Assembly: GCA_934661715.1 (NCBI GenBank)
Contig: CAKUJL010000005.1
Span: forward strand, 1-18,445
Reading direction: 5' to 3'
Origin: an uncultured Oscillospiraceae bacterium
GTDB lineage: Bacteria; Bacillota; Clostridia; Oscillospirales; Oscillospiraceae
Length of the DNA: 18,445 bases
How positions within the stretch are numbered: position 1 is the first letter of the stretch; each line of letters starts with the position of its first letter. This document shows, one piece after another, positions 2,994-18,445 of this stretch. The translations under genes and the position numbers were made by a program. Under the pieces are notes generated by a model, which saw only the letters and a program-made list of their open reading frames with translations, was not told where the DNA came from and ran no database searches.

Positions 2994-3002
2994 GAGAAAA
3001 TG

Positions 3003-3008
3003 AAGGAG
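3003..3008 (+). promoter_or_regulatory. Ribosome binding site deciding the MoxR start
   Basis: AAGGAG lies 9 bases before the ATG at 3018. It sits just inside the reading frame opened by the ATG at 3000, so that earlier ATG has no site of its own and the start at 3018 is preferred. Confidence 0.7.
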
Positions 3009-3017
3009 CAGCTTGCG

Positions 3018-3953
3018 ATGCATACGAAAATCAATGAAATTTTACAGGAGATCGAGTCCGTTATCGTCGGCAAAAATGAAATTGTCGAAAAAATCCTGAT
3101 GGCCATTCTGGCGCAGGGACACGTTCTCATGGAGGACGTCCCCGGCGTGGGCAAGACCACGACGGCGATGGCGTTCGCCAAAGTTCTGGGCCTGGACACC
3201 CGCCGAGTGCAGTTCACGTCCGACACCGTGCCGTCCGACATCATCGGCTTCTCGGTCTACGACAAAAAAGAGGACGAATTTGTCTACAAGCCCGGCGCGA
3301 TCATGACGAACCTGCTGCTGGCGGATGAAATCAACCGTACCTCCAGCAAAACGCAGTCCGCGCTTTTGGAGGCGATGGAAGAGCACAAGGTCACGGTCGA
3401 CGGCAAGACGTATGATCTTCCTGACCCCTTTATCGTACTGGCTACCCAGAACCCCGTGGGCTCGGCGGGCACGACGATGCTCCCCAATTCCCAGCTTGAC
3501 CGCTTCTTAATCCGCGTCAGCATGGGCTACCCCGACCACAAGAGCAGCGTGAACATTCTCCGCGACCGCCACATCGATAACCCCCTCGACCGCGCGTATG
3601 CCGTTGTCAACAAGGAAGAGCTCCGAAGCCTCGTGCAGGAGGTGCGGAAGGTCGATATGCGAGACCCGGTGCTCGATTATGTAACGACGCTCGTTGAAAA
3701 AACGAGAAACCACCCGCAGGCGGCCCTTGGCGTGAGCCCCCGCGGTGCGCTGGCGGTGTGCCGGATGGCAAAGGCGTTTGCGTACCTGCATGGACGCGAC
3801 TTCGTCATGCCCGAGGACGTGGCGGCGATCTTCCCGGACATCTGCGCCCACAGACTCATGCTCAGCAGCAAGGCGAGAATGATGGAGGAAAAGCCGGAGA
3901 ACGTTCTGGCCGAAATCCTCCGGTCGACCGACATGCCGGTGCTGAAAAAATGA
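3018..3953 (+). CDS. MoxR-family AAA+ ATPase
   Basis: This is a 311-residue cytoplasmic MoxR-type AAA+ ATPase; the family acts as chaperone-like ATPases that mature or activate partner complexes, often with DUF58 or vWA proteins. The protein shows Walker A EDVPGVGKTT around residues 39-48, Walker B LLLADEIN with D103-E104, the family segment following it (SKTQSALLEAMEE), and sensor 1 VLATQNP. Length is normal for the family. The start at 3018 (MHTKINEIL) is chosen from the ribosome site; an in-frame ATG at 3000 would add six residues. It lies 24 bases after the preceding gene, and its stop overlaps the DUF58 start by four bases (ATGA), which suggests coupled translation. The client is unknown. 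Its neighbours make the transglutaminase-like protein, the surface proteins or the ECF importer candidates. Confidence 0.95.
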   Translation: MHTKINEILQEIESVIVGKNEIVEKILMAILAQGHVLMEDVPGVGKTTTAMAFAKVLGLDTRRVQFTSDTVPSDIIGFSVYDKKEDEFVYKPGAIMTNLLLADEINRTSSKTQSALLEAMEEHKVTVDGKTYDLPDPFIVLATQNPVGSAGTTMLPNSQLDRFLIRVSMGYPDHKSSVNILRDRHIDNPLDRAYAVVNKEELRSLVQEVRKVDMRDPVLDYVTTLVEKTRNHPQAALGVSPRGALAVCRMAKAFAYLHGRDFVMPEDVAAIFPDICAHRLMLSSKARMMEEKPENVLAEILRSTDMPVLKK

Positions 3954-5065
3954 AGGTAGTACGAAAAATCGTCTGGCTTTTGCTGACGGCGGGGGTCTGT
4001 GTCCTCGCTGTGCAGACAGAAAGCGCCATTGCGCTGGGGCTGGCGGCGTGCCTGATTTTGCTGCCGCTTGTTTGCCTGCCAATGAACCTCCGCGCGGCAA
4101 AGAAGCTCAAGCTGGCGGTGAAGCTGCCGGTGAACCTCCGCAAAGGCGAAAGCGGCACGGCGGAGCTGACCGTACAGAACCCAACCGTCTTCCCAATTTG
4201 CCGTCTTTCCTGCCGCGTTCGGCTGGAAAATCAGCTGAACGGGGAGACGCAGATCGTGGAGACCGGCTGCGGCGTCTGGCCGAAGGGCAAAAGGACCATG
4301 AAAATTGCGCTCCAAAGCCCGTTTTGCGGCAGAATCCGCGTGAATGTGGAATCTGCGAAGCTCTATGACTGCTTCGGTCTCATTGGAGTGAAGGCGCGTT
4401 TTGACGCGCACGGCGCGTGCGTGGTGCAGCCGGACACGTTTTTGCAGACGCTGGTTCTTTCTCCCGCGGCGGCGCACATCGACGACACCGAGGACTATTC
4501 CAACGAGCGGCCCGGTTATGATCTTTCTGAAATGTTCCAGATCCGCGACTATGTCCCCGGCGACAGCCAGCGGCAGATTCACTGGAAGCTGAGCCATAAA
4601 TACGGAAAGCTCATCGTCAAAGACCCGTCGCTTCCCATCACGCGCTCGGCGGCTGTCTTCTGGGAGCGGACAGAAAGCGACCCGACAGCAGAACGCACCG
4701 ATGCGGAAGCCGAGATCGTCGTTTCCGTCTGCCGGAATTTACTTTCCCAGTCCGTGCAGTTCACCGTCGGCTGGAACGAGGAAAGCTCGGGACGCTGCGT
4801 GTTCCAGCAGATCCGCGACATGGACGACCTCATCGGCTTATTGCCGCGTCTTTTCACGGCGAAACCCGCGAAGGGCGCGAGCGGCGCGTCGCTTCTTTTG
4901 CAGGAGCTGCCCGCAGGGAGTTGCTCGCATCTCGTGTATGTGGCGGCGGAACGCAAGGCGGAGACGGACGAGCTTGCAAACATCGGCCGCCTGACGGCGC
5001 TCATCTGCGGTGAAACGTTCAACGAAACCGACTACGCCGCGCAGCTCTCCGAGCTGGAACTGTAA
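3950..5065 (+). CDS. DUF58 domain membrane protein
   Basis: This is a 371-residue protein starting at the ATG that overlaps the MoxR stop; a longer frame opens upstream at 3758 but would lie inside the MoxR gene. Two hydrophobic segments follow the basic N-terminus (about residues 7-22 and 26-45). They lead into a beta-rich domain and then the DUF58 signature at residues 199-213 (RDYVPGDSQRQIHWK), preceded by NERPGYDLSEMF from residue 185. DUF58 proteins are regular partners of MoxR ATPases and are thought to form an adaptor or vWA-like module at the membrane. The gene sits between MoxR and the transglutaminase-like protein, the usual order for this trio. No biochemical activity can be assigned. 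Confidence 0.93.
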   Translation: MKVVRKIVWLLLTAGVCVLAVQTESAIALGLAACLILLPLVCLPMNLRAAKKLKLAVKLPVNLRKGESGTAELTVQNPTVFPICRLSCRVRLENQLNGETQIVETGCGVWPKGKRTMKIALQSPFCGRIRVNVESAKLYDCFGLIGVKARFDAHGACVVQPDTFLQTLVLSPAAAHIDDTEDYSNERPGYDLSEMFQIRDYVPGDSQRQIHWKLSHKYGKLIVKDPSLPITRSAAVFWERTESDPTAERTDAEAEIVVSVCRNLLSQSVQFTVGWNEESSGRCVFQQIRDMDDLIGLLPRLFTAKPAKGASGASLLLQELPAGSCSHLVYVAAERKAETDELANIGRLTALICGETFNETDYAAQLSELEL

Positions 5066-5077
5066 GGAGGGCGGGCT

Positions 5078-7315
5078 ATGAAAAAAACGAAACATACCGG
5101 CCTGCAAGCCGGCGTTTATCACGAGAACGAAAAGAAAAACGAACTTTTTGCGCTCGTTTCAAACGTCCTTATTTTCCTCGCGCTTGCCGCGATTTTCCAT
5201 ACGGCGGCGAATTTCTCCGCGATTTTACCGCTTCTCGGCGCGGGCGTTCTGACCTGCATCGTGATTGCAATTGTCCGGCACTTCAAGAAGGCAGCGTGGC
5301 TGGCTCCCGCATTATTTATCGCATTGCTGGCCGCTGTCCTCATCGCAAAAACGCCGCTTCTGAGCGGCTTCGGCGCAGCCTGGAACGATCTGCGCGGCCT
5401 CTGGGCGGCGGAAAAAGGCATTTTACTGCCCCTTGCGGAAACCGACGGCGCGGGACCTTGGCTGGCCGGAATTGTGCTGGGCGTTTTGCTGGCACTGGTG
5501 AGCTTCGCGCTTTCCAATGTGCCGACCTTGGCGGCGGTTTTGCTGGCATCTTTCAGTGTAGCGGCGGCGTTTGTGCAGCCGGGCGTGATGCTGCTGTTCG
5601 CGGCAGGGATCAGTGTGCTGCTTCTTGCGTGGCAGAAGGAGAAAAACGCGGTTTCGGCGGCAAGCTTCGTGCTCGTGGGCGCGATCGTCCTTGGAATCGC
5701 CGCGCTGGCGCTGCAAACCGGCACGATGGAACATCTTTCGCAGGGCGCGAAGGACAGCTTGCATCATTGGCGGTTCGAGACGGCAGAAGAACTGCTTCCG
5801 GAGGGCGATCTGACGCAGCCTGTCAAAACCTCGGACAGCACGGACGCGATTTTGACGGTCACGTCCAGCGAAAACCAGACGCTCTATCTGCGCGGCTTCG
5901 TGGGCGACAGCTACGAAAACGAGACGTGGACTTCTCTGGATGCGAAGGCCGCCGCAGCGGAAAAAGACCTCTTCTACTGGCTGCACCAATCCGGTTTTTA
6001 CCCCCAGAGCCAGCTGGCTATGGCCGCGCGGCTGATGGGTAACTATCAATCCAGCGCAGTCAGCGTGCAGAACCTGACCGGATGCAGCCTGTACCGCTAC
6101 GAGCCGTGCAGCGTGCTTCCCGAACGCGCGGGACTGGCGAAAAACAAGATCCAGCCGTCCGAAGTCGAAACAAACGGCCTTCGCGGCCAGAGGAACTATA
6201 ACTTTGATTCCATTTCGGATGTAGCGACAGTCCTGCCGGAACTGCTGGATTTCCTCCAGAATGATGATTCCGGCACGGCGAACACCTATCTGCAAATGGA
6301 AAGCGCCTACCGCGAATTCGTGTATTCCTACGCGCTGAGCGTTCCGGCAGAATTCCGGGCCCAGCTGGGCGCGGTGCTCGACCAGTTCTGTGAGAGCTTC
6401 GGTTCTGCGGACAGCCTGACGAAGGAACAGGCACAGACAGCGGCGCTGGCGTTTCTGGAGCGCTGCTTCGATGGAAGCGGAGACGTTTCCCTGCCGCTCT
6501 CTGACACCGCAAACGGCACGACGTATCAGTACGCAACGGTCGCGGCCTTAGCGCTTCGCTATTACGGCATCCCCGCGCGATATGTCGAGGGCTACACCGT
6601 GAACGCAAAAGCGGGCGAAGAAACGACCATGGACGCAAAGGCGGCTGGCGCCTGGGTCGAAGTTTACCAGGACGGCGCGGGCTGGCTTCCGTTGGCTCTG
6701 ACGCCGGGACTCGAAGACCTCTCTGCCGAGCAGACCGAAAGCGGTGTAAAGCCCGTCGGCGCAGGCAAAGAAGGAACCGGCGACGGCCTTCGCGTCACGG
6801 AGGGTCAGGAATTGGAGCAGAATGACGCCGAGCCCGACAATTCTACCGACGACACTCCCGAGGGCGGCGAACGGACGGGCCTTCTCAAAAACCCGCTGTT
6901 CTGGGCGGTTCTGGCGCTGGCAATTCTTCTGCTTTTGCTTGCGGCCATCGTCATCCGGCACGCCGTCATTCTCAAAAAGCGGAACGAGACCTTCCGGATT
7001 TCCGACGACTCCGAAGCGTCCGCCAACCTCTTTGCCGACGCGGCGAAGCTTCTCGGTGCGCTCGGCTTTGACCGCGGCAGCGGCTCGATGCTGGAACTCT
7101 GCGAGGGCGTGGAAAACCGGTTCGGCGCGGAAAACGCAGGGAAGCTGCGCGAGATGACGTTACTCAACGCAAGGGCGCTCTTTTCCACAAAAACGCTTAC
7201 GAAGGACGAGCGGACGCGCATGGAAGACTTCCGTGCCGACGTTCTGAACCTGCTGAAAACCCACACAAAATGGCCGAAAAAGCTGCGCTTAAAGTGGCTT
7301 TCCTGCCTGTATTAA
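5078..7315 (+). CDS. Transglutaminase-fold membrane protein lacking the catalytic triad
   Basis: This is a 745-residue protein with AAGGAGG seven bases before its start. The first ~215 residues hold about six or seven membrane helices. A large extracellular part follows, then a single helix from about residue 605 (NPLFWAVLALAILLLLLAA) and a basic, helical cytoplasmic tail of about 115 residues. The transglutaminase core is recognisable at about 478-545 from GTTYQYATVAALALRYYGIP, ARYVEGY, AWVEVY and GWLPLALTPG. The usual catalytic positions are changed: the Cys of G-x-C is Thr482, the His of H-A-W is Gly524, and the Asp/Glu before x-TPG is Ala540. I therefore read it as a pseudoenzyme that binds or organises peptides or wall material. 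It is the third member of the MoxR-DUF58-transglutaminase set. Membership in the fold is well supported; loss of activity is inferred from alignment by eye. Confidence 0.9.
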   Translation: MKKTKHTGLQAGVYHENEKKNELFALVSNVLIFLALAAIFHTAANFSAILPLLGAGVLTCIVIAIVRHFKKAAWLAPALFIALLAAVLIAKTPLLSGFGAAWNDLRGLWAAEKGILLPLAETDGAGPWLAGIVLGVLLALVSFALSNVPTLAAVLLASFSVAAAFVQPGVMLLFAAGISVLLLAWQKEKNAVSAASFVLVGAIVLGIAALALQTGTMEHLSQGAKDSLHHWRFETAEELLPEGDLTQPVKTSDSTDAILTVTSSENQTLYLRGFVGDSYENETWTSLDAKAAAAEKDLFYWLHQSGFYPQSQLAMAARLMGNYQSSAVSVQNLTGCSLYRYEPCSVLPERAGLAKNKIQPSEVETNGLRGQRNYNFDSISDVATVLPELLDFLQNDDSGTANTYLQMESAYREFVYSYALSVPAEFRAQLGAVLDQFCESFGSADSLTKEQAQTAALAFLERCFDGSGDVSLPLSDTANGTTYQYATVAALALRYYGIPARYVEGYTVNAKAGEETTMDAKAAGAWVEVYQDGAGWLPLALTPGLEDLSAEQTESGVKPVGAGKEGTGDGLRVTEGQELEQNDAEPDNSTDDTPEGGERTGLLKNPLFWAVLALAILLLLLAAIVIRHAVILKKRNETFRISDDSEASANLFADAAKLLGALGFDRGSGSMLELCEGVENRFGAENAGKLREMTLLNARALFSTKTLTKDERTRMEDFRADVLNLLKTHTKWPKKLRLKWLSCLY

Positions 7316-7320
7316 GGAGG
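7314..7320 (+). promoter_or_regulatory. Strong ribosome binding site (AAGGAGG)
   Basis: A perfect AAGGAGG overlaps the stop codon of the preceding gene (TAA at 7313-7315) and lies four bases before the ATG at 7325. This is rather close spacing, but it fixes that start. Confidence 0.75.
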
Positions 7321-7324
7321 TTTT

Positions 7325-10300
7325 ATGAAAAGATTCGTTTCCATCCTGCTCCTGCTGGCGCTGCTGCTGGGCTGCCTTCCCATAAGCGCACTGGCCGCCG
7401 GCGAAGAAGGGTATTTCTACTTTTCGGCATCGACGCAGAGCAGCCTCATCATTGCGCCGGAACGTGTGTGTTACACGAGCGGACAGACGATCAAACAGGC
7501 GCTTGCGGCAAGCGGACATGTTTTCACCGGGCTGGAAAGCGGCATTGTTACGGCGATCGACGGTACGGCCGGAAACTTTGTGCGCGGCGATGAAACCGGC
7601 GACTATAACCTCGACAAACAGGCAAGCTCCGTCAACTACTTCGCTTTCAGAGAAGCCAGCGACAGTGCACTGAGTTTGGCGTTCCAGAGCCTCATGCAGG
7701 CAATGGCGGATTATCTGTACGAAGAAGTCGATGTGCAGCAAGCCGCAAAGACTGCGTATGACAACGCTTACAACAGCTATCCCGGCGCGGATGACACGCA
7801 GGCACAGAGACTTGCAGACGCGCTCAAAAAAGCTGTTTCGGACTACAAAACCAGTCTGAATACCGGCTATTCCGTATCATTTCCGCAGTTTACCGGCAGC
7901 GAGTACACCATCTATGCCGTGAACGCATACGGAAGACGCATTAACATGAAGAACGGCGTGCTTTCGCTTCCGGACGGCGAGTACACCTTCTACATCTACA
8001 AGGCCAACAAAGCGGTCAGCGGTACTCTGACAGTCAGCGGAGGAGCGCAGACGATCAACGATCTTCCCTCGATTCCGACGGACGCGTGGATCAACGAAAG
8101 CGCGTTCCGGATCTCCAAGTCCAGTAATTTGATGTTTGACCAGGACTTTATAGACGGCGCATTAAACCTGACGCGCGGCACGCACACTGCATCAGCAGAG
8201 CTGCCTGACACGTTCCAAAGCCAGCTGTACCCGTATGTGACGCTAAACAGCGACGTGGCGCTTTCGGCGATCTATACAAGCAGCGCCGACGGAACGGTGA
8301 AGACGGTCGAGCTTGCAAGCGGCTCAAAGAGAACGGCACTCTACAACGTTCTCGCGAAGGGCGCTGCGGGCAACACGGTCACCTTCCGCGCCAGCAAAGA
8401 GGATAGCGGCTACACGCTGCTCGAGGATTTTACCCTGACCCTCGACCGGACGCTGACGCTCAGCGGCCTGACCGTTACAAATGCGGCAGGCGAACAGCAG
8501 CCGTCGCAGCAGGAGTTCTCCGGAACCACGATGGCATATACCTATCGCGTGCTAAATACCGAACAGACGCTGAACATCTATCCCACGCCCACAGACCCCA
8601 ATGTCACTGTCACAGTGAACGGCGAAGCACTGAACGAGGCCGGATACGCAAGCGTGGGGATTCAACAGAATGAGCCGATTACTGTCAAGCTTTTGTCTGG
8701 CACATACGAGACAATTTACACGCTCACTATCGAACGCGACACGGCGACGACGGTTAAGGTTACGCTGGGAGAAGGCGTCACAGAGCTTGTCATGCTGAAC
8801 AAAAGCGGCGAGGAACTAAAACCGACAAAGACGACAGCAACACAGTATACCTACAGCCTGATCGCGAACGAAACGTATACCTGCCGCGCGACGAGAGACA
8901 CGTACTTCCATTCGGAAGAAACGTTCAAATTGACGGATAGCAGAATAAGCTTTATCGCGAAGGTCCCGATGGACAAGATGCCGTCCCTCAGCGATCTGCA
9001 AGTCTCCACGGCGAAGGAGCTTTCGGAGGCTAAGCTCGAGCTGAACACAGAGTTCGCGTCCGGCACGCACGAATACACGACCACTGTCGCGGACAACGAC
9101 AGCAGCCTCTATGCCTGGGCGGCTCCGGCAGAGGGCACGAGCGCGGAGTGCACCGTGTCCTACAGCGTCATCAGCAAACAGGCGACCGACGGCACAGTGA
9201 AAAAGGTCACGCCGACCGCAAATCTGCTGAAAGATGGCACGCAGCTTGAAAATGTGCTTCTGATGCAAAACGCCTACGGCAACACGCTGACGTTCCATGT
9301 GGCGCAGACGACCAAGGACGCGACCGGAACTACGACCTACTCGACAGACTACGTGCTGCACGTAACGCGCGGTCTGACGCTGCAAAAGCTCGAGATCACC
9401 GGCGTTACTCTGACCTTCCACCGCACACAGAAGACCTACACGATCACCGTTCCCGCCGCGCAGACAACGCTTTCGCTGACACCCACCGCGTGGGACAATG
9501 CCCGCTATAACGGTACCGACGGCGGCTATGATCTGTACGTCAGCGGCAAAGCGGCGGAATCCGGCAAGGCATCGGCGATCGAACTCTCCGGCACTTCGGA
9601 GACAGAAACCGTAACGGTCAAGGTCGAAAGCCGCGACGAAAAATCGCAGCCTGTGACCTACACGATCACCGTCCAGAAGGCAGTGGGCTCTCAGGTGACC
9701 TTCAACGTCGAGCCCACAGGTGCGCTTCTTTACATCTTCGACAAGGACAGCGGAAACCGCGTCTGGCCGGACGATGGCGGCGCGTGCGATATTTCCACCG
9801 GCTTCACCTACGGCTACAGCGTGACGAAGCCGGGCTTCGCCGGAAAAAGCGGGTACTTCAAGCTGGAAAACGGCAGCCTCGTCTTCGGCGTAATGAAGAG
9901 CGGTGAGGTCGACTATTCAGGCGGAGAAACCCATAACATCGACACGCCGTACCAGATCAGCCTGGAAGCAGCTCCGAAAAACACGCAGATCAACGAGAAC
10001 CTTCCCTCCGCGTGGCCCAACTTCCGCGGCAGCGCCTCTAACAACGGCGTGACAACGGCCAAAACCCCGATCGAGGCCGAGGCCGGTACGCTCTACTGGG
10101 CGGTTCCGATCGGCAGTGATTACGGGCTCGGCGCGGTCAGCAGTCCGATTCTCGTAGACGGCGATCTTGTCGTCAACAAGGGGAACGCGATCCTGAAAAT
10201 CGACAAGGATACCGGCGAGATCAAGAAAAAGGGGACGATGGTGGGCTCGTCGAGCTTCGCCATCAACGGCCCGACCTACGCGGACGGCGTGATTCTCGTC

Positions 10301-11821
10301 GGCCTGGCCAACGGACTGGTGCAGGCGTTCAACGCCGAGACGCTGGAGTCTCTCTGGGTCTATGCAGACCTGCTGGGCGGCCAGCCGAACAGCCCAATCA
10401 CGGTGCACAACGGCTACGCCTACACCGGCTTCTGGAATTCGGAAACAGGAAACGCGGCCTTCGTCTGCCTGTCTCTGACCGATGAAGACCCCACGGAGAA
10501 AAGGGAGAGCAAGCCCGCGACGTGGCGGCACGTGCAGGCGGGCGGCTTCTACTGGGCGGGCGCGTATGCGTGCGATGATTTCGTGATGGTCGGCACGGAC
10601 GACGGCGATGGCAGCTGCACGAGCCCGACGGCAAAGCTTCTGCTCTTCGAGCCCGAAACCGGCAGGCTGCTCGACAGCAAAACGAATCTCATCGGCGATA
10701 TCCGCAGCACGATCTGCTATGACGATGCTACAAAGGCATATTACTTCACCACCAAGGGCGGATATTTCTACAAGGTGACGGTGAGCAGACAGACCGACGG
10801 CACATACAAGCTGGGCGAACCGGAAAAAATCGCGCTTGGCGGCATGAGCACGTCGACGCCGGTCATTTCTAACGGCAGAGCCTATGTCGGCGTGAGCGGC
10901 GCAGCGCAGTTCGGCGATGGCGGCCACAACCTGTCGGTCATCGACCTGAAGAGCAAAAAAGTTGCTTATACGGTTCCGACGAACGGCTACCCGCAGACAA
11001 GCGGCCTTCTCACCACGGCGTATGGCGACTGCAATTACATCTATTTCTTTGAAAACATGCAGCCCGGCACGCTTCGCCTCCTGCGCGACCAGCCCGAACA
11101 GACCGCGGTGGACACAACATATCAGACGAAGGAAACCGCGGGCATGACCGCCTACGCACTCTTTACACCGGCTGGCAAGCAGGCACAGTATGCCATTTGC
11201 AGCCCCATCGCCGACGAAAACGGCACGCTCTACTTCAAAAACGACACCGGCTACCTCATGGCCTTCGGCAGCGCGATCGTTCCGGATTCCCTGACCGTTG
11301 TGTCGCAGCCCACGAAGCTTGTCTATCAGGCGGGAGATACGTTTGACAAAACCGGCCTCAAGGTGACGGCACAGTTTACAGACGGCACAACACGCGACGT
11401 GACAAAGCTGATGGCGCAGGAGGTTCCGGCAGCGCTCACCGAAGGAACGCCGGACGTTACGCTCATGTGTGCGCCGGGTCACATCATGTATCACAACAAG
11501 CAGAACGCGGACAAGACCATGACGTCACGCGTAGAAACGAATAAGCCGACAGTGCAGATTTCCATTACGGTTGGCGGCGTTTCCGGAAACATGGACTCGG
11601 TCAATTGGGGCTATGCCGCGAACCGGCTGACCCTCTCCGGCACGTTCCCGGCGGGCGCAAAGCTGATTGCCGCGACGTATGACGAAACCGGAAAAATGAC
11701 TGAGGCGAAGGCCTTTAACGCACTAGGCAGCGTGGAAATCACCGGCGCGAAGATCAAACTCTTCCTGCTCGACTCGACCGGAAAGCCCGTCTGTGCATCC
11801 GTGACGGTCACGGGTTCGTGA
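7325..11821 (+). CDS. Giant secreted protein: cadherin-like domains, PQQ-type beta-propeller, Ig-like domain
   Basis: This 1498-residue protein has a signal peptide with probable cleavage after ALA near residue 24; LLGC at residues 14-17 is a poor lipobox alternative. The N-terminal ~190 residues include a helical stretch (about 115-175). At least three cadherin-like beta-sandwich units follow, opening near residues 379 (LTLSGLTVTN), 553 (PSLSDLQVST) and 684 (LTLQKLEITG); two of them end in YTLTIER or YTITVQK. From about 890 (SAWPNFRGSASNNG) to 1318 runs a PQQ-type beta-propeller with blade motifs such as SSPILVDGDLVV, LKIDKDTGEI, STPVISNGRAYVG and GTLYFKNDTGYL. A bacterial Ig-like domain follows (LTVVSQPTKLVYQAGDTF...DGTTRDVT). 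No SLH domain, LPXTG motif or C-terminal helix is seen, so attachment is unclear. The position between the MoxR set and the ECF genes suggests surface recognition or scaffolding. No enzyme motif is visible. Confidence 0.93.
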   Translation: MKRFVSILLLLALLLGCLPISALAAGEEGYFYFSASTQSSLIIAPERVCYTSGQTIKQALAASGHVFTGLESGIVTAIDGTAGNFVRGDETGDYNLDKQASSVNYFAFREASDSALSLAFQSLMQAMADYLYEEVDVQQAAKTAYDNAYNSYPGADDTQAQRLADALKKAVSDYKTSLNTGYSVSFPQFTGSEYTIYAVNAYGRRINMKNGVLSLPDGEYTFYIYKANKAVSGTLTVSGGAQTINDLPSIPTDAWINESAFRISKSSNLMFDQDFIDGALNLTRGTHTASAELPDTFQSQLYPYVTLNSDVALSAIYTSSADGTVKTVELASGSKRTALYNVLAKGAAGNTVTFRASKEDSGYTLLEDFTLTLDRTLTLSGLTVTNAAGEQQPSQQEFSGTTMAYTYRVLNTEQTLNIYPTPTDPNVTVTVNGEALNEAGYASVGIQQNEPITVKLLSGTYETIYTLTIERDTATTVKVTLGEGVTELVMLNKSGEELKPTKTTATQYTYSLIANETYTCRATRDTYFHSEETFKLTDSRISFIAKVPMDKMPSLSDLQVSTAKELSEAKLELNTEFASGTHEYTTTVADNDSSLYAWAAPAEGTSAECTVSYSVISKQATDGTVKKVTPTANLLKDGTQLENVLLMQNAYGNTLTFHVAQTTKDATGTTTYSTDYVLHVTRGLTLQKLEITGVTLTFHRTQKTYTITVPAAQTTLSLTPTAWDNARYNGTDGGYDLYVSGKAAESGKASAIELSGTSETETVTVKVESRDEKSQPVTYTITVQKAVGSQVTFNVEPTGALLYIFDKDSGNRVWPDDGGACDISTGFTYGYSVTKPGFAGKSGYFKLENGSLVFGVMKSGEVDYSGGETHNIDTPYQISLEAAPKNTQINENLPSAWPNFRGSASNNGVTTAKTPIEAEAGTLYWAVPIGSDYGLGAVSSPILVDGDLVVNKGNAILKIDKDTGEIKKKGTMVGSSSFAINGPTYADGVILVGLANGLVQAFNAETLESLWVYADLLGGQPNSPITVHNGYAYTGFWNSETGNAAFVCLSLTDEDPTEKRESKPATWRHVQAGGFYWAGAYACDDFVMVGTDDGDGSCTSPTAKLLLFEPETGRLLDSKTNLIGDIRSTICYDDATKAYYFTTKGGYFYKVTVSRQTDGTYKLGEPEKIALGGMSTSTPVISNGRAYVGVSGAAQFGDGGHNLSVIDLKSKKVAYTVPTNGYPQTSGLLTTAYGDCNYIYFFENMQPGTLRLLRDQPEQTAVDTTYQTKETAGMTAYALFTPAGKQAQYAICSPIADENGTLYFKNDTGYLMAFGSAIVPDSLTVVSQPTKLVYQAGDTFDKTGLKVTAQFTDGTTRDVTKLMAQEVPAALTEGTPDVTLMCAPGHIMYHNKQNADKTMTSRVETNKPTVQISITVGGVSGNMDSVNWGYAANRLTLSGTFPAGAKLIAATYDETGKMTEAKAFNALGSVEITGAKIKLFLLDSTGKPVCASVTVTGS

Positions 11822-11831
11822 GGGACGGCAG

Positions 11832-12800
11832 ATGAAAAAAACGCTTGGAAAGCTTCTTATCCTCGCGCTTGTGCTGGCATCGCTCCTCTCACTCGCAGCG
11901 TGCGCGAAGAAGCAGGACACACCGCTTACCAGAACGGCTTCGTACCTGCAATCGCAGGTCAAAGAACCGTCCTTCGGCGCTCTCGGCGGCGACTGGCTCG
12001 TGTTCGGCCTTGCACGGTCCGGCGCGGACGTTTCACAGAAATATCTTGATACCTACTACAAAAATGTGGTAAACTATGTCGAAGAAACAGGCGGCGTGCT
12101 GAGCGAACAGAAATACACCGAGTATTCCCGCGTCATCCTCGCACTCACCGCCATCGGAAAGGACCCGCGCGACGTGGCAGGGTATGATTTGCTGCTGCCG
12201 CTGGCGGATTTTGACGAAACGGTCTCGCAGGGACTCAACGGCGCGATTTTCGCGCTGCTGGCCCTCGATTCCGGCCGCTACGACATCCCGGAAAAACCCA
12301 ACGCCGCCACGCAGGCTACGCGCGAACTGTACGTAGCAGAAATTCTGCGGCGCGAGATCGAGACCGGCGGCTGGGCGCTTTCGGGAAACGAACCGGACGC
12401 GGACATGACGGCGATGGCCCTGCAGGCGCTGGCAAAATACCGCGATGACCCCGAGGCTTCGGCGGCAATCGAGCGGGGGATCACGGCGTTATCTTCCATG
12501 CAGGAGCCGAACGGCGCGTATTTGTCGTGGGGCGAGGAAAACAGCGAGTCTGTTTCGCAGGTGATCACTGCGCTCACAGAGCTCGGCATTTCGCCGGAAG
12601 ATAGCCGCTTCGTCAAAAACGGCCAGACGCTTTTGTCTTCTCTCGAGCGCTTTTCCTGCGAAGACGGCGGCTACCGGCACACGCTCTCCAGCGGCGCGGA
12701 CGAAATGGCGAGTGAACAGGCGCTCTACGCGCTGGCTGCCGTCCACCGCGCACAGGCGGGTCTTTCCACACTTTACGACATGACGGATGTGATGCAATGA
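11832..12800 (+). CDS. Lipoprotein with terpenoid-cyclase-like alpha/alpha-toroid (transcobalamin N-domain-like)
   Basis: This is a 322-residue protein with a lipoprotein signal peptide; the lipobox LAAC places the lipidated cysteine at residue 24. The mature part carries the repeats of the prenyltransferase/squalene-cyclase toroid: TGGWAL, QEPNGAYLSW and CEDGGYRHTL, each followed by a helix such as TAMALQALAKY or SEQALYALAAV. The class II cyclase acid DxDD appears as DADM (189-192), so a binding role is likelier than cyclisation. The same fold forms the large domain of animal intrinsic factor and transcobalamin. It starts 10 bases after the preceding gene with only a weak ribosome site (AGGGA overlapping that stop), and its end overlaps the DUF4430 gene by four bases. 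Inferred role: the larger half of a two-protein ligand-capture device feeding the ECF importer downstream. The ligand, perhaps a corrinoid, is not proven. Confidence 0.88.
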   Translation: MKKTLGKLLILALVLASLLSLAACAKKQDTPLTRTASYLQSQVKEPSFGALGGDWLVFGLARSGADVSQKYLDTYYKNVVNYVEETGGVLSEQKYTEYSRVILALTAIGKDPRDVAGYDLLLPLADFDETVSQGLNGAIFALLALDSGRYDIPEKPNAATQATRELYVAEILRREIETGGWALSGNEPDADMTAMALQALAKYRDDPEASAAIERGITALSSMQEPNGAYLSWGEENSESVSQVITALTELGISPEDSRFVKNGQTLLSSLERFSCEDGGYRHTLSSGADEMASEQALYALAAVHRAQAGLSTLYDMTDVMQ

Positions 12801-13248
12801 AACGCGGATTTGCTCTTACGCTGCTTGCGCTGCTGCTTTTCCTCAGCGGCTGCGGAAAAAACGCGGCACTCGACAAAACGTGCACGATCTCCATCTCCTG
12901 CCAGGCGATTCTCGACAACCTGGACGCGTGCACGCCGGAAAAGCGCGAGCTCGTGCCGGAAGACGGCTGGATTCTAAAGCCCGTGCGGGCGGAATTTGCA
13001 GGGAAAGAAAACTGCACATGGAGTTTTCCGCTTCCCCGGTCTATAAGACCGCCTATATCGAGGGCATCGCGAATTTCTACGAATTTGACTGCGGCAACAC
13101 CTCCGGCTGGATGTACAGCGTCAACGGCTGGTTCCCGAACTACGGGTGCAGCGCGTACAAGCTGCAAGACGGCGACGTGATCGAATGGGTCTACACCTGC
13201 GATCTCGGAAACGACGTGGGCGGCGGCATGGCCGCGGAGGGCGAATGA
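12797..13248 (+). pseudogene. DUF4430 lipoprotein (transcobalamin C-domain-like), broken by frameshifting deletion
   Basis: The frame starting at 12797 gives a good lipoprotein signal (LSGC, cysteine 19) and the start of a DUF4430 domain (TISISCQAILDNL, then ELVPEDGWILKP). After about 13012 this frame turns to nonsense and stops at 13180. The rest of the domain continues in the -1 frame from about 13014: HMEFSASPVYK, YIEGIANFYEFDCG, SGWMYSVNGWFPNYGC, LQDGDVIEWVYTCDLG, ending at 13248. Compared with my recollection of the family, about 13 residues (the segment ending in V-F-D-V-L-type residues plus a Cys-containing helix) are missing at the join. An out-of-frame deletion of roughly 40 bases therefore explains both faults. 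The intact protein would be a ~160-residue lipoprotein, the small partner of the preceding toroid lipoprotein. Both ends keep four-base overlaps with their neighbours. An assembly error is the main alternative. Confidence 0.8.
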
Positions 13249-14141
13249 AAAACAAAGACGCCTTCTCGGGCTATCATCCGACGATCAACTTTTTGTATTT
13301 TGCGCTGGTGCTGCTGTTTTCGATGTGCCTGATGCACCCGGCGTACCTTCTGGTGTCTCTGGTCGGGGCGCTTTCGTATGACATTTTGCTCAAGGGCAGA
13401 AAGGCCGTGCGCTTTGCCGCGGCGGGTCTTCTGCCGATGGCGCTGCTGGCGGCGGTTCTGAACGTCGCGTTCAACCACGAGGGTATGACGATTTTAACGT
13501 ACCTTCCCTCGGGAAACCCCCTGACGCTTGAGTCCATGTACTACGGGCTTGCCGCGGCAGTGATGCTGGTAAGCGTCGTTCTCTGGTTTTCGAGCTACAA
13601 CGAGATCATGACGTCCGACAAGTTCGTCTATCTCTTTGGCCGCCTCATTCCGGCGCTGAGCCTCGTTTTGTCGATGGCGCTGCGCTTTATCCCGAAGTTT
13701 ACGGCGCAGATGAAAACCGTCTCGGAGGCGCAGGCCTGCATTGGCTGCGACACGAAGACGGGAAGCCTTCCCAGAAGACTTTCAAACGCCGTCAAAATTT
13801 TCTCGATCATGGTCACGTGGAGTCTTGAAAACGCCATTGAAACGGCGGACTCCATGCGTTCGCGCGGCTACGGTCTTCCGAACCGCACGACGTTTTCCAT
13901 CTACCGCTTTGATGACCGCGACAGGACGGCCTTTGCGTGGCTTTTATTCTGCGGCGCGTACATCCTTTCGGGCTGGATGGCGGGCGGGACGTATTTCCGG
14001 TATTATCCGACCGTGAAGGCGGCCGCGCCTTCCCCCATGAACGCGAGCTTTCTGCTCGTGTATCTGGCGCTGGTGCTGACGCCGGTGATTCTCGATCGAA
14101 AGGAGGCGCGCGCGTGGCAGTCTTCGAAATCAGCAATCTGA
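13245..14141 (+). CDS. ecfT: ECF transporter transmembrane (scaffold) protein EcfT
   Basis: This is a 298-residue membrane protein with a start overlapping the upstream stop (ATGA) and GGAGG four bases before it. It carries about five or six membrane helices. Family marks include NVAFNHEGMTILTYLPSGNP, LSMALRFIPKF, EAQACIGCD and MRSRGYGLPNRT. EcfT couples the paired ATPases to the substrate-binding S component through two short cytoplasmic motifs, often written ARG. Here the second is SRG (206-208) and the first reads CIG (165-167), probably a subfamily feature. The 3' end overlaps the following ATPase/S-component gene by 28 bases, as expected for one transporter made in fixed ratio. Confidence 0.93.
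   Translation: MKNKDAFSGYHPTINFLYFALVLLFSMCLMHPAYLLVSLVGALSYDILLKGRKAVRFAAAGLLPMALLAAVLNVAFNHEGMTILTYLPSGNPLTLESMYYGLAAAVMLVSVVLWFSSYNEIMTSDKFVYLFGRLIPALSLVLSMALRFIPKFTAQMKTVSEAQACIGCDTKTGSLPRRLSNAVKIFSIMVTWSLENAIETADSMRSRGYGLPNRTTFSIYRFDDRDRTAFAWLLFCGAYILSGWMAGGTYFRYYPTVKAAAPSPMNASFLLVYLALVLTPVILDRKEARAWQSSKSAI
14099..14106 (+). promoter_or_regulatory. Ribosome binding site selecting a GTG start
   Basis: AAAGGAGG lies seven bases before GTG at 14114, within the end of ecfT. It fixes the start at VAVFEISNLSFSY, the normal beginning of an EcfA domain. The frame is open upstream to an ATG at 13937, but that would add 59 residues translated across ecfT that do not look like protein. Confidence 0.85.
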
Positions 14142-16741
14142 GCTTTTCTTACCCCGAACAGGAAAAGAAGGCAATTCGCGACCTCACGCTGCGCGTCGAA
14201 GCGGGAGAGTTTTTCGTGCTCTGCGGCCCGTCGGGCTGCGGAAAATCGACGCTTCTGCGGCAGCTGAAGACCGTTCTGGCCCCGCACGGCAGACGTTCGG
14301 GCGAGATTTTCTTCGACGGAAGACCGCTCGACAGTCTTTCTCAGCGCGAACAGACCGAGACCATTGGCTTTGTCCAGCAGAGCTGTGATAACCAGATCGT
14401 CACCGACAAGGTCTGGCACGAGCTGGCGTTCGGCCTCGAGTCTCTTGGCTATGACACGCCGACGATACGAAGACGCGTCGCGGAAATGGCGTCGTTTTTC
14501 GGCATCCAGACGTGGTTTTATAAATCCGTCGCCGAGCTTTCGGGCGGGCAAAAACAGCTCTTGAATCTGGCCGCCGTCATGGTTTTGCAGCCGAAGGTGC
14601 TGATCCTCGACGAGCCGACGAGCCAGTTAGACCCCATCGCAGCCTCCGACTTTTTATCGACGCTCGGCAAAATCAACCGCGAGCTCGGAACGACCATCCT
14701 TTTGACCGAGCACCGGCTCGAAGAGGCGTTCAGCTTTGCCTCGCGCGTGGCGGTGATGGACGGCGGCAGGCTTCTTAGCACGGGAAGCCCTGCGGAGGTG
14801 GGCGCGGAGCTCAAAAACCGCGGAAACGCGATGTTCCTCGCGATGCCGGCGGCCATGCGCATCTGGAGCGCGGCAGACTCAAAGGCGGCGTGTCCCGTCT
14901 CGGTCTGCGACGGGCGGAACTGGCTGCTTTCCTACGCAAAAACCCATGAACTCAAAAACATTCCGGAACCGCCGAAGCCCGCGCCGAAGGGTGAGATCGC
15001 CGCAAAAGCGCACGAGCTCTGGTTCCGATACGAAAAGGACGCGCCCGATATCGTCAAGGGTCTGTCGTTGGAGCTCCATAAAGGCGAATTTCTCGCCCTC
15101 CTCGGCGGCAACGGCACGGGCAAAACGACGTCCATGAAGCTCCTCGCCGGACTCCAGAAGCCCTATCGCGGCGAGCTCACCATTACCGGCAGCGCCGGCA
15201 TGCTCCCGCAGAACCCGCAGGCGCTTTTTGTCAAGTCCACCGTCCGCGAAGACCTCCTTGAAATTCTCCCGAAGGCCGAGCGGAAAACGCAGCGCCTTGC
15301 GCAGGTGGTGCAGCTGTGCGATCTGACCGCGCTTCTGGACCGGCACCCCTACGATCTTTCCGGCGGCGAACAGCAAAGGGCCGCTTTGGCAAAAATTTTG
15401 CTCCTGAACCCCGAAATTCTGCTCCTCGACGAGCCGACGAAGGGTCTGGACGCGGAGTTCAAGCAGGTTTTCGGCCGGATCCTCAAAACGCTGCAAGCGT
15501 CCGGCGTGGCGATTCTGATGGTCAGCCACGACATTGAATTCTGCGCGAAATACGCCGGCCGGTGCGCCCTGTTTTTTGACGGCAATATCGTCACCGAAGC
15601 AGAGCCCCGCACCTTCTTCTCCGGCAACAGCTTCTATACCACGAGCGCAAACCGCATCGCACGCGACGTTCTGCCGGAGGCGGTGACGCCCGAGGACGTG
15701 ATCGCGGCCTGCGGCGGGGAAGTGGAAGAAGAACCGGAGCTTCCACAGTACGAGCCCGTTCTTCCCGCGCCGCAGACGGAAAAGACAAAAGCAAAAAAGC
15801 TTCCCGTCTGGCGAAAAATCCTCGCGGCTGTTTCAGGTCTTGCTTCGCTTCTTCTGATCATTCGGGCCATCGGCGTAACGGACCTAACGCAGCTCATCGG
15901 CGCGGAGGGACTGACGAATCTCGCCGCCGAACAGCTGAAGGCCTACGGCGTGCTTCTGGTGTCGCTTCTCGTCTTCGCGCTCTCGATCGGGCAGAAGGCG
16001 GAAAAGCCCGATTACCTTGTCAAAACGCCGGCGGAAAAACGCAGGCTTCAGAAGCGGACGGTTCTGGCGGCAATGCTCATTCTGCTCATGATCCCGCTGA
16101 CGCTCTATCTCGGCGTGCGCTTCTTCGCGGGGCGGAAATACTATCTCATTTCGCTTTTGATTTTGCTGGAATGTATGCTGCCCTTCTTCCTGATTTTTGA
16201 GGGAAGAAAGCCGCAGGCGCGGGAGCTGGTGCTCATTGCCGTGCTCGTCGCGCTGAACGTTGCCGGACGCGCCGCGTTTTTCATGCTGCCGGAGTTCAAG
16301 CCCGTCGTCGCGATGACGATTCTGGCGGGCGTCGCGTTCGGCGGGGAGACGGGATTTTTGGTCGGCGCAATGACGATGCTCGTTTCCAACATGCTCTTTT
16401 CACAGGGGCCGTGGACGCCGTGGCAGATGTTCGCGATGGGCATGATCGGCTTTCTCGCGGGCGTTTTGTACCGCAAGGGCGTTTTGCGCCGCTCCCGGCT
16501 CAGCCTGTGCATCTTCGGCGTCCTTGCCTCGACGGTTATCTACGGCGGCATCATGAACCCGGCGTCGGCCCTCATGTGGGCGCAGGAAATTGATCTCAAA
16601 ATCCTCATCGGCTACTACGTCAGCGGCATTCCGGTCGATCTGGTCAGAGCCGCGGCGACGTTCTTTTTCCTCTGGATCGGCGCGGGCGGAATGCTCGAGA
16701 AGCTCGACCGCATCAAGACAAAATACGGTCTGGCGGACTGA
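14114..16741 (+). CDS. Fused ECF transporter protein: EcfA-EcfA'-S component
   Basis: This is an 875-residue fusion, started from GTG. The first ATPase domain has Walker A GPSGCGKS (38-45), signature LSGGQ (142-146) and Walker B VLILDEP (D166-E167). The second has Walker A GGNGTGKT (331-338), signature LSGGE (415-419) and Walker B LLLDEP (D439-E440). After an acidic linker rich in Glu and Pro come about four membrane helices (565-695), then a six-helix S-component-like domain from residue 702 (ARELVLIAVLVALNVAGRA), with MTILAGVAFGGETGFLVGA and QGPWTPWQMFAMGMIGFLAG. This makes both ATPases and the substrate-binding subunit one chain. With EcfT, the window encodes a complete importer. The S domain resembles the CbrT-type group linked with cobalamin or its precursors, by recollection only, and the neighbouring transcobalamin-like lipoproteins agree with that. 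The substrate is an inference. Confidence 0.93.
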   Translation: MAVFEISNLSFSYPEQEKKAIRDLTLRVEAGEFFVLCGPSGCGKSTLLRQLKTVLAPHGRRSGEIFFDGRPLDSLSQREQTETIGFVQQSCDNQIVTDKVWHELAFGLESLGYDTPTIRRRVAEMASFFGIQTWFYKSVAELSGGQKQLLNLAAVMVLQPKVLILDEPTSQLDPIAASDFLSTLGKINRELGTTILLTEHRLEEAFSFASRVAVMDGGRLLSTGSPAEVGAELKNRGNAMFLAMPAAMRIWSAADSKAACPVSVCDGRNWLLSYAKTHELKNIPEPPKPAPKGEIAAKAHELWFRYEKDAPDIVKGLSLELHKGEFLALLGGNGTGKTTSMKLLAGLQKPYRGELTITGSAGMLPQNPQALFVKSTVREDLLEILPKAERKTQRLAQVVQLCDLTALLDRHPYDLSGGEQQRAALAKILLLNPEILLLDEPTKGLDAEFKQVFGRILKTLQASGVAILMVSHDIEFCAKYAGRCALFFDGNIVTEAEPRTFFSGNSFYTTSANRIARDVLPEAVTPEDVIAACGGEVEEEPELPQYEPVLPAPQTEKTKAKKLPVWRKILAAVSGLASLLLIIRAIGVTDLTQLIGAEGLTNLAAEQLKAYGVLLVSLLVFALSIGQKAEKPDYLVKTPAEKRRLQKRTVLAAMLILLMIPLTLYLGVRFFAGRKYYLISLLILLECMLPFFLIFEGRKPQARELVLIAVLVALNVAGRAAFFMLPEFKPVVAMTILAGVAFGGETGFLVGAMTMLVSNMLFSQGPWTPWQMFAMGMIGFLAGVLYRKGVLRRSRLSLCIFGVLASTVIYGGIMNPASALMWAQEIDLKILIGYYVSGIPVDLVRAAATFFFLWIGAGGMLEKLDRIKTKYGLAD

Positions 16742-16857: not shown

Positions 16858-16877
16858 AGCTACAGGAAAAATGAAAT

Positions 16878-16882
16878 GGAGG
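16878..16882 (+). promoter_or_regulatory. Ribosome binding site deciding the cohesin-SLH start
   Basis: GGAGG lies five bases before ATG at 16888. It is inside the frame that begins at an earlier ATG (16876), so the start at 16888 is preferred; it also gives a cleaner signal peptide (MRVRRIG...). Confidence 0.75.
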
Positions 16883-16887
16883 ACACT

Positions 16888-18003
16888 ATGCGCGTCAGGA
16901 GAATCGGAATATTCTGCGTGATTTTCGCGCTTCTGGTATCGCTGCTCCCGGCGGCCTTCGCGGCGGGCACGAGCGTCGTGGTCACAGCGCCGGACGCATT
17001 GCCCGCAGTCGGCGAAAGCTTCACCGTGACCGTCAGCGTCTCGGGCAATCCCGGCCTGTCTGCCGCGCAGGTAAAGCTCGGCTATAACGACGCGGTTTTA
17101 GAGTGCACGGCGGTCAGAAACGGCGCGGTGACGAGCGGGATGCTCTCGGCCACGAACACGCACGGCACAAGAGACGGCGTCGGGGCCGTATTGGCCGCGG
17201 CAAGCACCGACACGGTCAAAAAGGACGGGGAGCTCGCCGTCTTCACCTTCACGGTCAAAGCCGCGGATGACGCGAAGCTCTCCATCTCGCAGACGACGAT
17301 GGCAAACGCCGACGGCGCACAGATCACCTTTACCTACGATCTTCCAAAGCTCGTCTCCGAAGACAGGACGCAGCCCTCCGTGATCCCCCCGCAGACCCCC
17401 GAAGCGCCGCAGGAGGACGAAAAAACCGGCTCCTTCCGCGATGTCAATTCCCGGCACTGGGCGTTTGCCTCAGTCGAGCGGGCGGCAGAGCTCGGGCTTG
17501 TCGCGGGCTTCTCGGACGGAACGTTCCGGCCGGACGAACCGGTCACGCGGGCGCAGTTCGTGCTGATGCTCTGGCGCATGGCCGGAAAGCCGGAAGCGAA
17601 AGAAAAAGCGGCCTTCACCGACACGGCAGGCGGCGACTGGTACGAGACAGCGCTCAACTGGGCGTATGAAAACGGCTTTGTAAACGGTATCAGTGAAACG
17701 ACCTTCGGCCCGAACGCGAATATCACGCGCCAGCAGGCCGTCGCCATCCTCTTCCGCTATGCCGGAAGCGAAACGGGCGGCGAAGCGCTGGTCTCCGGCG
17801 TGTATGAATCGGGCTTCTCCGACAGCGGCGCAATCGCCTCCTGGGCAAAGGACGCGATGTGGTGGGCGGTCTACCATTCGCTCGTCTCCGGCGTCGGCAA
17901 CGGAAAAATCGCGCCCGAGCAGAATGCCTCCCGCGCACAGATCGCGGCGATTTTGCTGCGCTACATGGACAAATTCCCGACAGAAAGGCAGGCGCTTGCA
18001 TGA
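16888..18003 (+). CDS. Cell-surface cohesin-like protein with three SLH domains
   Basis: This is a 371-residue secreted protein. The signal peptide ends near residue 25 (AFA/A). Residues about 27-165 form a cohesin-like beta-sandwich: VVVTAPDALPAVGESFTVTV, LSAAQVKLGYNDAVLECTAV, and GELAVFTFTVKA. A short Pro/Glu-rich linker leads to three S-layer homology domains at about 183-228, 243-293 and 310-360, with the usual TRAQ-type motifs VTRAQ, ITRQQ and ASRAQ. SLH domains hold proteins to secondary wall polymers, and cohesins bind dockerins. The layout is that of a small surface anchor such as the cellulosome anchoring proteins, with one cohesin. Its stop overlaps the next gene, which carries a dockerin, so the partner may be encoded immediately downstream. 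Cohesin assignment is good but made by eye; a generic carbohydrate-binding beta-sandwich is the alternative. Confidence 0.9.
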   Translation: MRVRRIGIFCVIFALLVSLLPAAFAAGTSVVVTAPDALPAVGESFTVTVSVSGNPGLSAAQVKLGYNDAVLECTAVRNGAVTSGMLSATNTHGTRDGVGAVLAAASTDTVKKDGELAVFTFTVKAADDAKLSISQTTMANADGAQITFTYDLPKLVSEDRTQPSVIPPQTPEAPQEDEKTGSFRDVNSRHWAFASVERAAELGLVAGFSDGTFRPDEPVTRAQFVLMLWRMAGKPEAKEKAAFTDTAGGDWYETALNWAYENGFVNGISETTFGPNANITRQQAVAILFRYAGSETGGEALVSGVYESGFSDSGAIASWAKDAMWWAVYHSLVSGVGNGKIAPEQNASRAQIAAILLRYMDKFPTERQALA

Positions 18004-18445
18004 AACGAAGAATTTTGGCGCTTTTCCTCGCGGCGCTCACGCTCCTGACGCTCACCACGGCGGCGCTTGCGGCCGAGGAAGCCAACGGCGCGTATAACGT
18101 GCAGAGCAAGGCGGGCTACACGCTTCGTGTAGAGAACGTCACGGAAGACGGCGGCTTCTACGCAAACGCGGACACGTTCACGCTGACGCGCAACACCGCA
18201 CCGGCCGAGCAGACGCTTGTGTACCTCGTGGAAGGAAGCGGCCTGCCGACGGAAGAGAATCTACAGTACATCGACCAGAGCGGCACAAACGCGGCGTTCA
18301 CCCTCAAGCCCAAGAAGCTGGAGGCCGGAAAAACCTACCGCGTCTACGTCAGCACCCAGAGCAAAGCGCCAGTAGAGGCCGCGTCGTTCAGCTATGGGGC
18401 GAAGCCGAGCTATAAATTGGGTGATGTAAACGAAGACGGCTATAT
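18000..18445 (+). CDS. Secreted dockerin-containing protein (3' partial)
   Basis: The start ATG overlaps the preceding stop (ATGA), with only a weak AAAGG site about 11 bases before it, so translation may be coupled. The visible 148 residues begin with a signal peptide (MKRRILALFLAALTLLTLTT, cleavage near ALA-A at about 24). A beta-rich domain of about 110 residues of unknown type follows. The last residues, KLGDVNEDGYI, match the first calcium-binding loop of a type I dockerin (G-D-V-N-x-D-G-x-I). The second dockerin half, or any further domain, lies outside the window. It is a likely ligand for the cohesin of the gene before it. Confidence 0.82.
   Translation, partial: MKRRILALFLAALTLLTLTTAALAAEEANGAYNVQSKAGYTLRVENVTEDGGFYANADTFTLTRNTAPAEQTLVYLVEGSGLPTEENLQYIDQSGTNAAFTLKPKKLEAGKTYRVYVSTQSKAPVEAASFSYGAKPSYKLGDVNEDGY

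Follow-up and report, generated by a model that had tools for sequence, protein, structure and literature searches.

A predicted corrinoid capture and import operon with transcobalamin-like lipoproteins, an ECF transporter and cohesin-dockerin parts in an Oscillospiraceae bacterium

Background

A transcobalamin-like clade of SLBB domains was described in Gram-positive bacteria by Burroughs et al. in 2007. In the accessible portion of that paper (PMC1796856), the proteins are secreted and occur in fusions with toroids, their operons encode a second SLBB protein next to CbiO- and CbiQ-like genes, B12 scavenging and the formation of surface complexes are predicted, and lateral transfer to animals is proposed; transcobalamin is given there as one chain with the toroid first. 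We read this clade as Pfam DUF4430, which is supported by a profile match to transcobalamin-2 (see below). For the import step, the accessible part of another study reports transport of cobalamin and cobinamide by the energy-coupling factor (ECF) transporter ECF-CbrT of Lactobacillus delbrueckii (PMC5997447). Here we analyse a stretch of 18,445 nucleotides (contig CAKUJL010000005.1, the window in what follows), in which genes for a toroid lipoprotein and a DUF4430 lipoprotein run into an ECF importer and are followed by cohesin and dockerin genes. The host is a monoderm bacterium, assigned to Oscillospiraceae by its relatives, and its habitat is probably the animal gut.

Sequence and structure comparisons make it highly probable that this operon serves the capture and import of a corrinoid, cobalamin or cobinamide. 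The ligand is taken to be a corrinoid because the S domain is nearest to CbrT, cobalamin riboswitches lie upstream in relatives, and Cob genes lie downstream in relatives; the same evidence supports the proposal of the first-pass annotation that a corrinoid is captured at the surface and passed to an ECF transporter. In view of the prediction in PMC1796856, the idea of corrinoid capture is a rediscovery, now with these three lines of added evidence. The core of the system is a variant of a kind known since 2007, and what is new is the link with cohesins and dockerins.

The ECF importer

The window contains eleven genes by our choice of reading frames, all in one direction. Those of the capture and import system, with the S-component part of the fused gene on a line of its own, are as follows.

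11832..12800, plus strand: toroid lipoprotein (transcobalamin alpha-domain-like); PF13243 3.2e-7; AF2 model with pLDDT 94.7; fold matches
12797..13248, plus strand: DUF4430 lipoprotein gene (transcobalamin beta-domain-like); PF14478 6.9e-17; frame broken at about 13000-13020
13245..14141, plus strand: EcfT; PF02361 7.3e-7
14114..16741, plus strand: fused EcfA-EcfA'-S; PF00005 1.1e-55 in two stretches; PF07155 4.1e-11; PF12822 3.6e-8; TIGR04520 3.8e-95
15989..16741, plus strand: S-component part, CbrT-like; 6fnp_A 4.5e-8; five-sequence profile 1.1e-15
16876..18003, plus strand: cohesin with three SLH domains; PF00963 1.8e-11; PF00395 6.8e-39 in three stretches
18000..18445, plus strand: secreted protein with a dockerin, truncated at the window end; 100% identical to the 200-residue P0241 (PF00404 1.3e-8)

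At three junctions (toroid to DUF4430, DUF4430 to EcfT, EcfT to EcfA) the end of one gene overlaps the beginning of the next, so that the overlapping lipoprotein genes do run directly into EcfT and a fused EcfA-EcfA'-S protein, as first annotated. The parts of an ECF transporter are complete: EcfT (29.5 bits against a cut-off of 25), two ATPases, and an S component (PF12822, 34.0 against 30.7). The fused gene has a GTG start at 14114 behind AGGAGG, and its Walker A motifs lie at 14225 and 15104. Against solved structures, the S domain has a single significant match in PDB, to CbrT, the vitamin B12 S component (6fnp_A). A profile built from five S components of the operon family again places CbrT first, ahead of RibU (4.2e-4) and 4hzu_S (2.1e-3). 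By homology, the S component of the window is thus CbrT-like and the importer is predicted to be of B12 type.

Two transcobalamin-like lipoproteins

The protein at 11832-12800 is a lipoprotein with a lipobox ending in LAAC (by eye) and a squalene-cyclase/prenyltransferase toroid, for which PF13243 is above its cut-off and PF00432 (4.2e-4) below it; the alpha/alpha-toroid expected in the first of the two lipoproteins is thus confirmed. Comparison of structure models shows the toroid fold to be shared with animal transcobalamin: rat transcobalamin stands at rank 6 in the Foldseek search with the model (E 9.1e-5). A sequence profile of the toroid found no match to transcobalamin at E up to 1.

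The DUF4430 gene starts at 12797 with a lipobox ending in LSGC (by eye), and its frame-1 piece at 12880-13245 matches PF14478 with 62.1 bits against a cut-off of 23.8. A profile of 70 DUF4430 sequences retrieves transcobalamin-2 as the five best of 12 PDB rows, with 5no0 at the top (7.8e-5); an earlier profile of 30 sequences gave transcobalamin weakly, at 0.11. A match from a single-sequence DUF4430 search was rejected as due to chance and is superseded by the 70-sequence profile. A third DUF4430-like domain had been noted in the large protein at the window start (3-2993). There PF14478 reaches 19.9 bits, short of the Pfam cut-off, but orthologues in six loci (L081-L084, L099 and L103) match DUF4430 by BLAST at 41-50 bits.

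Cobalamin riboswitches and gene neighborhood in relatives

Relatives were collected by toroid searches, of which the best 80 loci were used; 50 genomes, not a random sample, were chosen from 50 of these loci. Toroid, DUF4430 lipoprotein, EcfT and EcfA occur on one strand in 50 of the 57 loci whose sequence extends 5 kb or more beyond the toroid (58 of 80 overall), the DUF4430 lipoprotein type being defined by a BLAST score of at least 110 bits. The ECF genes precede the toroid in a few loci (L019, L041, L047, L066). The system also occurs in named isolates of Caproiciproducens, Christensenella, Paenibacillus and Bacillus, and in many gut-derived Oscillospiraceae and other clostridial assemblies; a search of viral contigs found no relative.

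The cobalamin riboswitch RF00174 is present in 47 of the 50 genomes. Within 12 kb upstream of the toroid, on the same contig and strand, it was found in at least 24 of 35 genomes and at least 7 of the 15 others, that is, in at least 31 of 50, against about 0.6 expected. Within 26 kb, the numbers rise to at least 28 of 35 and at least 7 of 15 (at least 35 of 50, about 1.2 expected), with four of the 50 genomes having an upstream copy at 23-24 kb. These counts are lower bounds, obtained by combining genome-wide matches under stricter filters with toroid positions, and the expected numbers assume random placement and rounded genome sizes. Among the matches listed, 14 of the 35 genomes have a single RF00174, and in 11 of these it is the copy upstream of the toroid. 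When toroid loci were scanned with cmscan, six of seven contained RF00174 (all except L028), as did six of seven from another set of sources (all except L016). The search for cobalamin riboswitches upstream in related genomes, proposed as a check in the first pass, was thus positive in at least 35 of 50.

The four window-like operons (L081-L084) have two or three RF00174 copies upstream in each. Together with L008, L018, L002 and L007, they show one succession, from riboswitches through surface proteins to the gene order of the window (from the orthologue of its 996-residue protein to EcfA-A'-S). RF00174 also occurs on contig L104 of genome G003, which probably represents the head of the operon of L004. 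Downstream of the ECF genes in L002, L004 and L018, CobT scores above its cut-off; CobS-like genes in the same three loci and a CobU-like gene in L018 are all below the model cut-offs. Two further riboswitch arrangements were observed. In L046 (contig C337 of G032), cobalamin riboswitches stand back to back (12639-12899 minus, 13257-13510 plus) between the toroid gene and a divergent gene for a 2907-residue protein with DUF4430 matches, and in L018 a thiamine pyrophosphate riboswitch match just above its cut-off (19798-19903, 54.4 bits) lies downstream of the ECF and Cob genes.

A number of observations weigh against a corrinoid capture operon. The window itself contains no RF00174, and it starts within the operon; the 10-kb flanks of L001, L002, L004, L005, L007, L008 and L018 lack the riboswitch too, which in L002, L007, L008 and L018 was found further upstream. 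Fifteen of the 50 genomes have no RF00174 within 26 kb upstream among the matches listed, in some cases because of contig ends (not counted separately), and three have none at all. In genome G001, to which L001 belongs, the toroid loci L005 and L010, which have ECF genes, show no RF00174 in the upstream stretches scanned; a weak match (34.3 bits, not in the counts) lies 3.5 kb upstream of toroid locus L026 on contig C6. The nearest relative, L001, with a 72% identical toroid, shares the upstream genes of the window and lacks DUF4430, EcfT and EcfA behind the toroid; no RF00174 was found for L001/L099 in the 10-kb flank, in a further 19.9 kb upstream, or, with E allowed up to 1, near the head of the cluster. 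No relative closer than G001 was found among 400 genomes drawn from its family. The DUF4430 gene of the window is broken: it runs in frame 2 from 12797, loses homology by about 13010 and continues in frame 1 to 13248, so that the second lipoprotein of the first-pass annotation has the expected lipobox and domain but is not one open frame in this contig. An intact homolog of 163 residues (P0121, 98% identical over the matched part) represents eight contigs, which makes the break a strain variant or an assembly error. Finally, terpene cyclases are the closest matches of the toroid in both sequence and fold, ahead of transcobalamin. For a natural fusion of DUF4430 and toroid (L065), the model (pTM 0.60) does not fix the mutual placement of the two domains, and the listed matches are mainly over the toroid.

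In an alternative reading, the toroid would be an enzyme akin to terpene/squalene cyclases, or a protein that handles polysaccharides, and the ECF importer would carry an unrelated vitamin. We regard this as very improbable: NCBIfam cyclase models score 26.3, 22.1 and 19.3 bits on the toroid, far under their cut-offs of 322.7, 431.1 and 851, the S-component profile places CbrT ahead of RibU by eleven orders of magnitude, and the riboswitches and Cob genes of relatives point to a corrinoid. As to L001, behind its toroid (in L001:10939-17637) stand a gene for a 613-residue protein that matches no Pfam family, a match to pemK RNA and, by eye, recombinase-like genes. They take the place of the ECF genes, which gives the impression of an interrupted locus.

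Cohesins and dockerins

The window carries both kinds of docking domain, a cohesin on a protein with three SLH domains and a dockerin on the gene cut by the window end. The cohesin-SLH protein is a probable S-layer-anchored receptor for dockerins, and the cohesin and dockerin of the operon are predicted to pair with each other. Similar clusters of cohesin and dockerin genes within B12 operons are seen in the window (16876-18445), L065 and L081-L084.

In two genomes, G043 (Bacillus sp. REN16, L065) and G017 (L024), a single cohesin and a single dockerin were found, and both sit in the operon. A DUF4430-toroid protein ends in the dockerin, and the short protein encoded next carries the cohesin (in L065, genes 1393-4116 and 4181-4840). 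Two RF00174 copies stand in front of the L065 operon; the G017 genome has none among the matches listed. All three cohesins and all four dockerins of G006 are in its riboswitch-headed operon, and the operon holds 3 of 3 cohesins and 3 of 4 dockerins in G005, 5 of 6 and 4 of 4 in G012, and 1 of 3 and 3 of 4 in G002. The only dockerin and one of the two cohesins of G035 lie beside the toroid at a contig end.

Proximity was defined as at most 25 kb from the toroid, on its strand. By this measure, 8 of the 28 cohesin-bearing genomes have a cohesin nearby, all 28 being covered and G045 represented by 2 of its 36 matches (both on its toroid contig). Dockerins are near the toroid in nine genomes of an initial 11; G024 and G042 were dropped since there the dockerins are further upstream than a riboswitch in front of the toroid. 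The dockerin count covers 26 of the 28 genomes with matches, G015, G024 and G041 being represented by one match each and G016 and G045 by none; by inspection, none of the omitted matches is on a toroid contig within 25 kb. A single-sequence search and a motif had found far fewer cohesins and dockerins than the later Pfam search.

These numbers leave room for a different explanation, namely that the operon's cohesin and dockerin genes are part of a scaffold that the bacterium uses generally and that is unrelated to B12. It would account for the 20 of 28 cohesin-bearing genomes without a nearby cohesin, for the 22 of 50 genomes without any cohesin match, and for the many copies elsewhere in some genomes (55 dockerins in G024, 36 cohesins in G045), and is at odds with G043, G017 and G006, where the domains are confined to the operon. 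We consider it a substantial, if less favored, possibility. Docking would also be unnecessary where the toroid protein has its own SLH part, and matches to the SLH part of the cohesin-SLH protein are found on toroid proteins in 43 of the 70 loci with a called toroid gene (by Pfam only for L053). In the family of G043 (17 genomes), cohesins occur in four others, all without a toroid match, so that the pairing is seen there in one genome only.

We put forward, with the balance of probability about even, a cellulosome-like device for a vitamin: dockerin-bearing B12 capture proteins and surface partners would plug into S-layer or membrane cohesins beside a CbrT-type importer, both in the clade of the window and, separately, in some Bacillus and Clostridium relatives. 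Such a modular array, usually under riboswitch control, would concentrate corrinoids, and in the lineage of the window its membrane-proximal step would be a transcobalamin split into two lipoproteins.

Proposed mechanism and cargo

Under corrinoid scarcity, cobalamin riboswitches at the operon head, found in relatives and presumed for the window, would allow expression. The toroid and DUF4430 lipoproteins, neighbors on the outside of the membrane, may clamp the corrinoid between them in the manner of the transcobalamin alpha and beta domains, and hand it to the CbrT-like S component, which by homology would be driven by EcfT and the paired ATPases EcfA-A'. SLH-anchored surface proteins, partly through putative cohesin-dockerin contacts, would extend the capture layer outwards. 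CobU, CobS and CobT, encoded further along in some relatives, would complete the imported corrinoid.

This last step bears on the range of the cargo. It may be that the main cargo is an incomplete corrinoid such as cobinamide and not complete cobalamin, which overlaps with the preferred explanation and seems to us rather unlikely. The CobT, CobS-like and CobU-like genes behind the ECF genes in some relatives are what would be expected for cobinamide salvage, and CbrT also takes cobinamide, according to the accessible part of PMC5997447; on the other side, complete cobalamin is bound by CbrT and transcobalamin, and the riboswitch family senses cobalamins.

Other genes of the window

Upstream of the toroid gene lie five more genes.

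3..2993, plus strand: large surface protein of 996 residues, truncated at the 5' end by the window start; weak DUF4430 around 1932-2033 (PF14478 0.0011, 19.9 bits, below cut-off)
3000..3953, plus strand: MoxR-type AAA ATPase; PF07726 6.9e-57
3950..5065, plus strand: DUF58-like protein; PF01882 1.3e-4, 21.7 bits, just under the cut-off of 23.4
5078..7315, plus strand: transglutaminase-like protein of TgpA type; PF01841 1.5e-12; PF11992 2.9e-5 (below cut-off)
7325..11821, plus strand: large secreted protein of 1498 residues; cadherin-like and PQQ_2/BamB-like domains; Big_3 just below cut-off

The MoxR, DUF58 and TgpA-type transglutaminase genes (3000-7315) are kept in window-like operons. Orthologues of the 1498-residue protein have a C-terminal dockerin in L002 and L004 (Pfam) and in L007 and L008 (motif), whereas none was seen in the protein of the window (7325..11821).

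Comparison with known systems

Animal B12 carriers are single secreted chains with the toroid first. The locus shares with transcobalamin, haptocorrin and intrinsic factor the toroid fold and a sequence relation of the beta domain; instead of one chain, it has separate genes for toroid (11832-12800) and DUF4430 (12797-13248), and the products are two lipoproteins on a bacterial cell.

With the SLBB proteins of Burroughs et al. (PMC1796856, accessible portion) it has in common SLBB/DUF4430 together with an alpha/alpha toroid, secretion, and CbiO/CbiQ-like operon genes. It differs in its separate lipoproteins, the CbrT-like S component, the riboswitches that head the operons of many relatives, and the cohesin/dockerin parts; that portion of the text does not use the words riboswitch, dockerin, lipoprotein or ABC transporter. 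The lipoprotein split, the EcfA-A'-S fusion and the cohesin-dockerin parts were not found in the literature searched, which left preprints and most subscription journals outside, and no paper in the PMC literature searched joins transcobalamin with dockerin, cobalamin with cohesin, dockerin and riboswitch together, or a transcobalamin-like protein with an ECF transporter. DUF4430 is mentioned there in a paper on vertebrate B12 binders.

ECF-CbrT of L. delbrueckii has a homologous S component. As described in the accessible part of PMC5997447, CbrT is a separate protein encoded in an nrdJ-cbrS-cbrT-pduO cluster, with no extracellular capture protein of its own named, while in the window S is fused to EcfA-A' and EcfT and capture proteins are encoded alongside. 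The BtuG, BtuH and BtuJ proteins of Bacteroides are likewise surface lipoproteins under riboswitch control, which capture B12 and supply it to an importer, as far as the accessible text of PMC13398666 goes; the DUF4465 proteins there are beta-jellyrolls beside btuB and btuCD, in contrast to toroid and DUF4430 with an ECF importer in a monoderm.

In the literature reached, surface B12 capture is far less worked out in monoderms than in Bacteroides. The locus provides a specific capture system, built with the folds of the human B12 carriers, that can be put to the test, and through it the 2007 proposal that animal transcobalamin came from Gram-positive bacteria becomes testable by biochemistry. 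Cellulosomes are built with cohesin-dockerin docking domains. At this locus the same kinds of docking domain accompany a B12 operon, which suggests that cohesin-dockerin docking may serve vitamin capture.

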